64,000 nt of DNA from Rhodoferax sp. GTDB taxonomy: Bacteria; Pseudomonadota; Gammaproteobacteria; Burkholderiales; Burkholderiaceae_C. The notes under the pieces are model-generated. The model worked only from the letters and a program-made list of their open reading frames with translations, searched no databases and was not told where the DNA came from. A program made the position numbers and the translations under genes. Numbering within the stretch: the first letter of the stretch is position 1; every line of letters begins with the position of its first letter. Location: positions 272,127 to 336,126 of the forward strand of contig NZ_JAURYQ010000036.1 of the NCBI RefSeq assembly GCF_030653815.1. Direction: 5' to 3'. Positions 16,732 through 49,069 of the stretch are shown piece after piece.

Positions 16732-16760
16732 GCCTCGACCCCGCCTCATTACAATGGCCG

Positions 16761-16843
16761 CTTCACCGGGGGTGTCCGTTGCAAGACGGTCTGAGACAGT
16801 CCCCTTACCTGATCTGGATCATGCCAGCGTAGGGAGCGTGAAG
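16761..16843 (+). ncRNA. TPP (THI-element) riboswitch
   Basis: CTTCAC/GTGAAG closing stem; GGGGTG...CTGAGA...ACCTGATCTGGATCATGCCAGCGTAGGGA core; upstream of thiB. Confidence 0.95.
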
Positions 16844-16917
16844 GCTTGAAGGTCTGCTGCCAGCCGGTTCGCCTCGTGCCCGGCGCCCCTTGCGTTGGCG
16901 CATTGAAAGGCTTTGCC

Positions 16918-45149: not shown

Positions 45150-46115
45150 TCAGTTCATTTCAGCGCGCACGTTGTTCTTGAACTCGTACAGCGTCACAGC
45201 CGGCACGGTCAACTCGCCTTTGGGGGTGAATGCGATGTTGGCGGTGATGCCCTTGAGCTTGGTTTTTCCGATGAACGGCACGTAGACGACGGGGTCAACC
45301 GAATTGGCGCGCTTCATGGCGTCCACCAAGACGAAGGTGGCGTCATAGGCGTAGGGGCTGTAAATCTGGAACTGGCCCGGAAAGCGGGCATCGTACTTAT
45401 TCTTCCAGGCTGCGCCGCCCTGCATCTTCTCCACCGAGGCACCACCGGTGGCGCAGGTGACGTTTTTCATGGTGGTCGCCTTGCTGGACAGTTCGCCCAG
45501 CTTCTCGGTGCACAGACCGTCACCGCCAAAGAACTTGACATTGGTCATGCCCAACTGCTCCATCTGGCGCAGCATGGGACCCGCCTGGGAGTCAAGGCCG
45601 CCATAAAAAACCGCATCGGGCTTCTTGCTCTTGATGTTGGTCAGGATGGCCATGAAGTCGGTGGCCTTGTCGGTGGTGAATTCTTCAGCCAGGACTTGCA
45701 TGCCCTTTTGCTTGGCGGTGGCCTTGAACACATTGGCCAGGCCCTGGCCATAAGCCGTGCGGTCATCGATCACGGCGACCGTTTTGAGTTTCAGCTTGTC
45801 ATTGGCATACACAGCCAGCGCCGAGCCCAGCGCGTTGTCGTCGGCAATCAGACGGAAGGTGGTGGCGTAGCCGCGTTTGGTGACGTCGGGGTTGGTGGCT
45901 GCGACCGTGATGTGCGGTAAATCGCATTTGTTGTACACCGAAGAAGCCGGGATGGTGGTGCCCGATTGCAGGTGACCGACCACACCGGCCACCTTGGAGT
46001 CGCACAGCTTTTGCGCCACGGCGGTCGCCTGACGCGGATCGCCTGCGTCGTCCTCGGCTGCCAGCTCAAACTTGCCCCTTGGCTTGATAAAACCGGATGG
46101 CATTGCGGCCAGCAT
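45150..46115 (-). pseudogene. LivJ-type branched-chain amino acid ABC substrate-binding protein, N-terminally truncated
   Basis: Clear LivJ-like sequence from GKFELAAEDDAGDPRQATAVAQKL to the C-terminus, but no signal peptide or first beta-alpha units; start overlaps the 3' end of the GGDEF gene. Confidence 0.75.
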
Positions 46116-47037
46116 TTTTGGCCTGGTACATCGCGGTATCAGCCCACTTCAGCAGGTCGCTGACAGAGGCCTGCTGGCCGCAGAACATCACCACGCCCAG
46201 ACTGGCGGAGCATTGGTGTTCGATCAGGTGTTCAGCTTGACCGTTCTGGCTGATCGTCAGAGCGTAGGCCTGGGTGAGGGCGGAGCGAATTTTCTCTGCA
46301 ATGACCGATGCGCGCTTCAGAGAAGTGGCCTGGTCTGCAAACAGGTCGCTGAGCAGGATGACAAATTCGTCGCCGCCAAAGCGGGACACCGTGTCCGTCT
46401 CGCGCACGCACTTTTTCAGCTGCGCCGCGACCTGGCACAACAGTGCATCGCCGACGTCGTGTCCATGGCTGTCGTTCACCAATTTGAAATTGTCCAGGTC
46501 CAGGAAAATCAGCGCGCCATGACGGCCACTGCGTTTGCTGGCCGCCAGGGCCTGGCTCAAGCGGTCGTTCATCAGTCTGCGATTGGGCAGGTGGGTGAGC
46601 GGGTCATAGAAAGCGAGTTGGTGCACCCGTTCTTCCATCTGCTTGCGCTCGGTGGTGTCACGCTGCACCGACACCCAGTGGGTGAACCAGCCCTGCTCAT
46701 TGGCCACGGGAACAATCTCGAATTCATTCCAGTACGACGTTCCGTCCTTGCGGTAATTCAGCAGTTCCGCGCGGATCGGCCGCCATTGGGTCATTGCCTC
46801 GCGCACCCGGTCAAGCGTGGCACGGTCGGTACCCGGCCCCTGCAACATGCGCGGGGTATTGCCAATGACTTCTTCCGGGCTGTAGCCGTTGCGTTCGTAA
46901 AAAATCTTGTTGACCCAGACGATGCGTGGTCCGGGTTGGCTGAAGGGTTCCGCTTCGGTGATCACAACAGCATCATTCATGTGGTCGATGCACACCTCAA
47001 GCAATTTTGGCAGGTCGGGAATGGAAGGGATCAACAT
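46066..47037 (-). CDS. PAS (LOV-like)-GGDEF diguanylate cyclase
   Basis: GNTPRMLQGPGTDRATL...NYRKDGTSYWNEFEIVPV PAS; DPLTHLPNRRL, RFGGDEFVILL. Confidence 0.92.
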   Translation of the reverse strand: MLIPSIPDLPKLLEVCIDHMNDAVVITEAEPFSQPGPRIVWVNKIFYERNGYSPEEVIGNTPRMLQGPGTDRATLDRVREAMTQWRPIRAELLNYRKDGTSYWNEFEIVPVANEQGWFTHWVSVQRDTTERKQMEERVHQLAFYDPLTHLPNRRLMNDRLSQALAASKRSGRHGALIFLDLDNFKLVNDSHGHDVGDALLCQVAAQLKKCVRETDTVSRFGGDEFVILLSDLFADQATSLKRASVIAEKIRSALTQAYALTISQNGQAEHLIEHQCSASLGVVMFCGQQASVSDLLKWADTAMYQAKNAGRNAIRFYQAKGQV

Positions 47038-47092: not shown

Positions 47093-49069
47093 TCAAGCCT
47101 CGTACTGTGCGAGTTTTTGCGCAAATTCATCCAGGGAAGCAATACAGGTGGTGTTGGGGTAGGTTTGCAGGGTCTCCATTCCGGCCCAGCGGAACGCCTG
47201 CCCGCCCACCAGAATCGGCAGTTCGGGGTGGTGGTGGTTGACAGCGTCGATGGTTTTGATCAGTGAAGCCAGGTTGGATGGCAGGCTCAATGACAAGCCC
47301 AGCAGGGTCGGATGAAGCGTCTCGATGATGCGCAGCAAATCCGGGATGCTTGTGTTGGCCCCGTGAAAGTGACTGTCCCATCCGTGGATTTGACAAAAAT
47401 CAGCCATCATGCGCGCGCCAAGTTGGTGAAACTCATCCGCAACACAAGCAATGACCATGTTTTTGTTTTTCTTGCGTTCCTTGCTGGCCAGAGGCAGTAT
47501 CAGGCTCAGCATCTGCCCCGTGATGGCCGTGGCCAGGTGTTCCGACGCGACCGTCATTTGCTCGTGCTCCCAGCACTCTCCCACGTCGTACATGGCGCGC
47601 TGAAGCAGCCCGATGTACAAGTCCTGGACGCTGGCCCCCTGGGCCATCAACGCTTGAACCATCCCGGCGCAAAGCTCACGCTTGCCAGCCAATAATGCTG
47701 CCAGGTAGGGTTGATACACAGACTCATCAATGCCGCGATGCCTGGGTATCGCCTCATGATGCCACTGGGCATGGGCTTGAGGGAAGGCCATTTGAATGGC
47801 TTGCGCCAGCGTGTGATAAACCGCAGAGATCCATTCGTCCGGAAAGCGCGATGCGTCGGTGAGCCAGCGCCGCAGGTTCTGAATCGCATGGACACTGCCA
47901 TTCAGATCATCGGTGATGGCACAGCCGATCAACAAGCCAATGTCTGGCAGGTGAGCGCGCCATTGTTCCCCCACCGTCTGGTCAAAGCCATCGGCCAGGC
48001 TTTGGAGTTGCACATCGCTCAAATATTTGCGCCGAGACGCCTGCAGGTCGGCTGCTCCGATCAACAATTTCTCATAGCTGGATTGCCGTTCAGGAATGGC
48101 CGCCACGAGTTCGGTGACCAGAATTTCGAGTTGTTTTTCAAGTAAATAACTCGGCATGCCACGGCCTGCCAGAACGCGTCCGAGCCAGCGCACCTGTTGC
48201 AGGATTTGCGTGGCTGGGTATTGGTGCAGCGTCGCCTGCCAGGCGGCATCGCTGCGGGCAAAACGCCTGCCGCGCTCCCCATATCGCCGCTCGAAATATG
48301 GAAAACGCTGCCAACACAGGTCGCCAGCACGCAGGGCGGCCTGTAGCTCGCGGGCATCGGTTGGTACGGCGTGGTAGCCGGCCTCCGGGTTGATGGAGGT
48401 GACCAGAAAGACCCTGGATTCAGGCGTAAACGGGTACAAGGCCAGGAAGATGGTTTCCAGTTGCTGAAAGAAGGCAATCGCCGCGTCGGCCACTTGCTGG
48501 CGTTGCGCCGCATCAAGCACCAGCGCGTTCATGGCCTGTTTGAACCTGCGCCAACGACGTTGCATGTGATCCGCGTTTCCGCCAAGATAGGCCAGACCGA
48601 GCCCCTCTTCGAGCAACAAGGCGCGCGCAAGCATGGGCCGCACGACCATGGCACCCAACATGGATCCCTCCAGCACATAAAGACAGGCCAAAAGGGTCAG
48701 CGGCTGCTCGATGGATTGCAGGCGAAGTTGTTGCGCAACAAGCTGGGCTGCTGCCACCGATTCCTTCAGGTCGGCCACTTGGCGTGGCTCAAAGTAATGC
48801 AGATCTTGTGCGATCAGGGGCAGTTTGCGCATGTCCTTGTGCCAGACTTGGGCGACGTGCTGATTGGCACTGTCGGTCAGCGCTTGCTCCAGCACACCGT
48901 GAATCATCGCCAAGGCGCGCAGTTGTCCGACATACGATTCCAGCGGCAGTTGGCCGGCCGCCAGCGCCACAAAAAAAGGCGCGCGCTGCAATTGGCGATG
49001 CACGGCGAAGCTGGCCGTCTTGAGTTGTTCCATGAGCGTGAGTCGCTGCTTGACCATTCCTGATTCCAT
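47093..49069 (-). CDS. Heme-oxygenase-like / uncharacterised middle region / B12-binding (CarH-type) fusion protein, 658 aa
   Basis: N-term LKTASFAVHRQL and YVLEGSMLGAMVV (HO-like); C-term WEHEQMTVASEH (Wx9EH) and EFHQLG (ExHxxG) B12-binding signatures. Confidence 0.75.
   Translation of the reverse strand: MESGMVKQRLTLMEQLKTASFAVHRQLQRAPFFVALAAGQLPLESYVGQLRALAMIHGVLEQALTDSANQHVAQVWHKDMRKLPLIAQDLHYFEPRQVADLKESVAAAQLVAQQLRLQSIEQPLTLLACLYVLEGSMLGAMVVRPMLARALLLEEGLGLAYLGGNADHMQRRWRRFKQAMNALVLDAAQRQQVADAAIAFFQQLETIFLALYPFTPESRVFLVTSINPEAGYHAVPTDARELQAALRAGDLCWQRFPYFERRYGERGRRFARSDAAWQATLHQYPATQILQQVRWLGRVLAGRGMPSYLLEKQLEILVTELVAAIPERQSSYEKLLIGAADLQASRRKYLSDVQLQSLADGFDQTVGEQWRAHLPDIGLLIGCAITDDLNGSVHAIQNLRRWLTDASRFPDEWISAVYHTLAQAIQMAFPQAHAQWHHEAIPRHRGIDESVYQPYLAALLAGKRELCAGMVQALMAQGASVQDLYIGLLQRAMYDVGECWEHEQMTVASEHLATAITGQMLSLILPLASKERKKNKNMVIACVADEFHQLGARMMADFCQIHGWDSHFHGANTSIPDLLRIIETLHPTLLGLSLSLPSNLASLIKTIDAVNHHHPELPILVGGQAFRWAGMETLQTYPNTTCIASLDEFAQKLAQYEA

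Follow-up and report, generated by a model that had tools for sequence, protein, structure and literature searches.

An open reading frame of 658 amino acids without stops (47093..49069, minus strand), located in the window, i.e., the whole 64,000-nucleotide stretch of a Rhodoferax sp. contig that was analysed, probably encodes a photocobilin-type photoreceptor carrying its own biliverdin-making enzyme; from its sequence, we put the probability of this reading at about two in three. Photocobilins are B12- and bilin-dependent photoreceptors in which a CarH-like B12 module is combined with a biliverdin-binding photoglobin (Zhang 2024, PMC10979010), and they are recognized by adenosylcobalamin and biliverdin being bound side by side and by a response to both green and red light. 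The predicted protein consists of a heme oxygenase (HO) domain, a photoglobin, a conserved tail of ~85 residues standing between the globin and the B12 module, and the CarH-like B12 module itself. An initial annotation had described the protein as a soluble sensor of bilin or heme plus B12. Its reading frame and all motif positions were correct when the translation was rechecked, and its view of a soluble protein with bilin and B12 as likely cofactors is judged right; its assignment of the sensing part to the HO domain is not, and the photoglobin had been missed. The fused frame was also continuous in an independent Rhodoferax metagenome-assembled genome (MAG; L002, 76% identical), and a sequencing error is hence unlikely. 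The AlphaFold model of the full-length protein was only moderate (pLDDT 75, pTM 0.44), so that the domain arrangement, a close packing of the two chromophores, and their coupling can be regarded only as possible.

The CarH-like adenosylcobalamin module (residues 446-658; 47096..47734, minus strand), composed of a four-helix cap and a Rossmann fold, was assigned by Pfam, PDB matches, and motifs. PF02607 (B12-binding_2, residues 453-522) matched at 45 bits against a curated cut-off of 23, and PF02310 (B12-binding, residues 538-636) at 56 bits against a curated cut-off of 32, as expected from the CarH-type module that had been proposed for the C-terminus. Of the motifs named previously, W500-x9-E510-H511 and E546-F-H548-Q-L-G (ExHxxG) were confirmed, with W, EH, and ExH being invariant in seven B12 modules. 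The best solved sequence relatives were the photocobilin structures 8J2W, 8J2X, and 8J2Y and not CarH; of the leading structural matches, photocobilins likewise superposed with the smallest RMSD (2.3 Å, about 200 columns). The signature of light-responsive B12 proteins used by SignatureFinder comprises GxxW, EH, GxxH, and GxxxP (PMC11796333), of which the first two were found (G497-E-C-W500 and E510-H511) and the last two were altered (D545xxH548, with the lower His itself present, and G570xxxS574). GxxxP is retained in the relatives L003, L004, L006, and L007. According to the study that defined the signature (PMC11796333), the Gly that is changed here touches the corrin through its backbone, and the changed Pro, as part of the adjacent monomer, touches the cofactor; photochemistry or dimerisation may therefore differ in the window protein. 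With its altered GxxH and GxxxP, the protein could have been overlooked by searches relying strictly on the signature. CarH/LitR proteins likewise have an adenosylcobalamin module with Wx9EH and the lower-ligand His; unlike them, the window protein combines this module with HO and globin domains, has a kinase or a cyclase as the likely output in its gene cassettes, and contains no N-terminal MerR helix-turn-helix (no MerR match in Pfam, in line with the absence of such a domain noted before). The host genome encodes a corrinoid adenosyltransferase; a cobalamin riboswitch was not found near the gene.

As photocobilins pair the B12 module with a globin, their match to this module led to the middle of the protein being tested as a photoglobin. 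The region had been described as unrecognised, which holds insofar as no Pfam family scored above its cut-off and nothing significant was returned by Pfam and PDB sequence searches (best 1sg7, ChaB, E 0.13), but it could be resolved into a photoglobin and the conserved tail. A profile of residues 216-435, aligned from nine proteins and searched against 399 genomes of the order, gave a sole non-self match (L011, E 7e-5). The 352-aa open reading frame of L011 encodes a globin and, C-terminal to it, a B12 module, and is clearly related to SasPcob (E 1e-31). Comparison with photoglobins using hhalign yielded a probability of 94-96% and a score of 51 over 89 columns, compared to a maximum of 21 in 100 column-shuffled controls and 12.6 for a reversed photoglobin profile. 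In the AlphaFold (AF2) model of the middle domain (pLDDT 91), five globin-length helices were placed at residues 239-347. Foldseek ranked SasPcob highest by probability for the isolated domain (8j2x, 0.57, RMSD 4.2 Å), followed by allophycocyanin and haemoglobins; since none of the E-values was significant, the fold search by itself is no proof of a photoglobin. Based on these comparisons, residues ~239-347 (48029..48355, minus strand) are assigned as a photoglobin, i.e., a bilin-binding globin, and as a better candidate bilin site than the HO domain.

In SasPcob, Asp270 touches rings A-C of biliverdin and Trp296 packs onto the corrin and ring D (PMC10979010). Aligned through L011, these residues correspond to D274 and W295, which are invariant in ten aligned HO-globin proteins; across 15 aligned members, W295 is conserved in all and D274 in 14, being replaced only in L043, a stand-alone globin. 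Conservation in the HO-globin protein is highest in the block CWQRFPYFExRYGERGxRFA.SD..W.ATL. Non-covalent bilin binding is expected, because the Cys of the phycobiliprotein CxRD motif is replaced by Ala271. Another Cys, C252 (48314-48316), which is located early in the globin core, is present in 14/15 members and is a possible covalent bilin or redox site. W-x(9-10)-EH, E/DxH, a photoglobin on the same chain, and counterparts of Asp270 and Trp296, which together mark a photocobilin, can all be recognized in the predicted protein. It should be considered that photoglobins may lose biliverdin binding, as the occupancy in AbDPcob was ~20% (PMC10979010).

The helical tail of the globin unit (residues ~348-435; 47765..48028, minus strand) contains five residues (D387, W402, R408, F409, and W413) that are invariant in 15 relatives, stand-alone globin proteins among them. 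No recognisable relative of residues 348-435 was found. A second half-globin repeat was considered for the tail and rejected, with hhalign comparisons to globins and to the first half remaining at chance level.

The HO domain comprises residues 1-215 (48425..49069, minus strand). PF01126 (Heme_oxygenase) matched residues 11-208 at 71 bits and 1.4e-19, i.e., far above the curated cut-off of 23 bits, and the domain matched solved bacterial and human heme oxygenases in the PDB over its whole length, so that the HO fold suggested earlier for the N-terminus was borne out. The candidate proximal H24 and the distal helix G135-S-M-L-G139-A140 were located as described, with H24, G135, and G139 being invariant in nine HO-globin proteins; the previously noted Gly-to-Ala exchange after G139 recurred in all aligned HO-globin fusions except L008 (Val). 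Because they are conserved among relatives, these residues and the motifs of the B12 module are not chance occurrences. H24, G135, and G139 align with H25, G139, and G143 of human HO-1. In the same alignment, which also included a phytochrome-linked BphO, Asp140 of the human enzyme is replaced by Ser and Gly144 by Ala.

These exchanges, together with the fusion of the HO to a signalling module, would fit a degenerate, non-catalytic HO that senses heme or bilin, with the photoglobin and the B12 module as further ligand inputs. We consider such a protein rather improbable, as the proximal His and the distal GxxxG, both kept in working heme oxygenases, are invariant. The Ser is no argument against activity, because it also occurs in the BphO beside a phytochrome in Azonexus (L034); the Ala next to the distal GxxxG does count as a caveat. 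Moreover, the HO is the only one in most carrier genomes: of nine such genomes, seven have a single HO and eight lack a phytochrome. The host encodes this HO only and has no phytochrome (no PF00360 match), for which reason a role of the HO in serving one was rejected. Azonexus, the sole carrier of the nine with phytochromes, has a second, separate HO adjoining one of them. This pattern is consistent with the HO serving the photoglobin specifically. A redox partner for the HO was not encoded beside the gene. Judged by its conserved residues, the HO is therefore more likely a bilin-making enzyme than a sensor, with biliverdin supply as the simpler role, and the sensing function ascribed to it in the initial annotation is probably wrong.

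The full HO-globin-B12 fusion was seen only in the window and in the Rhodoferax MAG L002. Elsewhere, an HO-globin gene was adjacent to a separate B12 gene (L003, L006, L007, and L013), or the B12 gene was followed in turn by genes for a histidine kinase, HO-globin, and a response regulator (L004 and L009-like loci, with L008 being similar); in L009 itself, the HO-globin gene was not seen to be followed by a response regulator, and L005 lies on a partial contig. In L040 and L041, a stand-alone globin is accompanied by a B12 gene and a kinase or a GGDEF-EAL protein, without an HO. HO-globin, B12 module, and kinase or diguanylate cyclase output recur, fused or adjacent, in MAGs of proteobacteria and Verrucomicrobia. 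The functional linkage of globin, HO, and B12 module is well supported, because the globin repeatedly adjoins HO and B12 modules in both fused and unfused form. The cassette was sporadic, being detected in 1/301 genomes of the family, in 2/338 of a Verrucomicrobia sample, and in 5/200 of the Azonexus family, the last figure including weak and stand-alone matches. This spread suggests horizontal transfer; single placements could be binning errors, since most of the named carriers are MAGs. The full architecture was not found on plasmids, which yielded only globin-B12 or B12 proteins.

The gene arrangements also bear on whether the HO could itself be the output, with the globin-B12 part switching heme breakdown, and thereby iron, CO, and biliverdin, according to light or B12 status. 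Known photocobilins do regulate a fused enzyme domain as their output (PMC10979010). Nevertheless, this is unlikely here: the cassettes consistently carry a histidine kinase, a response regulator, or a diguanylate cyclase, the HO and the B12 module are separate proteins at several loci, and globin-B12-output cassettes exist without any HO (L040, L041). Very unlikely is a B12 module acting as a corrinoid methyl-transfer protein or sensor of B12 levels without light chemistry, since, despite distant matches to MetH and corrinoid proteins and the altered GxxH and GxxxP, 7/7 aligned B12 modules of the family keep ExH and the adenosyl-capping W-x9-EH, and no methyltransferase was seen beside the genes, except that L004 has a separate pair of corrinoid-protein/methyltransferase-like genes downstream.

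For the preferred photocobilin-type receptor with its own HO, the likely output is encoded by a PAS-GGDEF diguanylate cyclase gene located 55 bp downstream (46066..47037, minus strand; RFGGDEF and RETD (I-site)). In its GGDEF part, the encoded protein shares 61% identity with the RR-PAS-GGDEF (response regulator-PAS-GGDEF) protein of the Rhodoferax cassette L003. Judging from gene order, this likeness, and the fusion in AbDPcob, light-controlled c-di-GMP would be the likeliest output here. The PAS domain was compared by eye with Cys-type LOV domains and rejected as such, as the Cys of GxNCRFLQ corresponds to a Pro in GNTPRMLQG.

Whereas the identities of the domains and the repeated association of the genes were computed, all of the chemistry outlined in the following is inferred. 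The N-terminal HO, with its conserved residues, would oxidise heme to biliverdin. Biliverdin would then be bound by the photoglobin, probably without a Cys link, held by D274 and with W295 nearby as in the SasPcob alignment. Going by motif identity, adenosylcobalamin would be bound base-off/His-on via H548, and its adenosyl group would be capped by W500 and E510-H511. When B12 absorbs green or UV light, or when biliverdin absorbs red light in a process coupled to B12, the Co-C bond would be cleaved and the oligomeric state would change, as was demonstrated for SasPcob and AbDPcob (PMC10979010). This change may be relayed to a separate output, here probably the downstream PAS-GGDEF protein and in relatives a histidine kinase, and, according to gene order, light would set c-di-GMP or phosphorelay signalling. 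That one chain integrates light, O2/heme, and cobalamin, with bilin being handed over directly from HO to globin and light sensing hence gated by heme and oxygen in addition to B12, is proposed only tentatively.

Photoglobins, photocobilins, and the association of HO, B12, and globin genes are already known (PMC10979010, PMC10151467, PMC11796333). The photocobilins SasPcob and AbDPcob (8J2W, 8J2X, 8J2Y) resemble the window protein in the CarH-like B12 module, the five-helix globin, W-EH, ExH, and the Asp270 and Trp296 counterparts. AbDPcob also shares the diguanylate cyclase output, which is fused in AbDPcob and a separate neighbouring gene here. Unlike both, the window protein has an N-terminal HO and the conserved ~85-aa tail after the globin, and its globin lies N-terminal of the B12 module, as is also reported for other photocobilins (PMC10979010). 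BBAG-2 globins are associated with HO and B12 proteins, and their biliverdin binding was demonstrated (Rockwell et al. 2023, PMC10151467); in contrast to the window protein, the three parts are encoded separately, in some cases together with a pre-PcyA reductase, and no fusion is described in the sections of that paper that were consulted. As in BphO-BphP pairs, the HO would supply biliverdin to a neighbouring photoreceptor; unlike there, the host has no phytochrome, the bilin site would be a globin, and the HO is covalently joined. A built-in HO fusion was not reported in the literature searched; one may nevertheless be mentioned in the founding photoglobin paper (Schneider 2022, PMC8717448) or in supplements. 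The new element, of which we found no report, is hence a photocobilin-like receptor with built-in HO and conserved tail. Photocobilins took up biliverdin supplied by the experimenter, and the natural ligand of photoglobins and the biliverdin source of the hosts have been little explored; the HO-photoglobin(-B12) fusion is genetic evidence for biliverdin as the intended ligand. A single-gene, possibly self-loading red/green photoreceptor may serve optogenetics, and B12/bilin photobiology reaches further than was known, as the globin-B12-output cassette recurs in MAGs of beta- and gammaproteobacteria and of Verrucomicrobia.

Several further loci were observed. A stand-alone photoglobin gene overlaps a diverged HO gene at L035:4230-5482, constituting a second HO-photoglobin pairing, and another photoglobin gene lies beside a MerR-B12 (CarH-like) regulator and an HO at L042:269-2952, a possible three-gene light regulator. 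In Azonexus (L034:2642-8215), a phytochrome-GGDEF, BphO, and a MerR-B12 regulator are encoded in a row. On a plasmid of Ilyobacter polytropus, a divergent photoglobin-B12 protein overlaps a GGDEF gene (L026:2863-4906); this organism is an anaerobe, in which an O2-dependent HO would be unexpected. In the window, a LivJ-type substrate-binding open reading frame (45150-46115, minus strand) overlaps with its 5′ end the end of the PAS-GGDEF gene. Compared with its same-genus homologue L052 (83% identical), it lacks ~80 N-terminal residues and the signal peptide, which suggests that sequence was inserted or deleted on arrival of the photoreceptor cassette. A TPP riboswitch was detected above the gathering score at 16758-16853 (plus strand).
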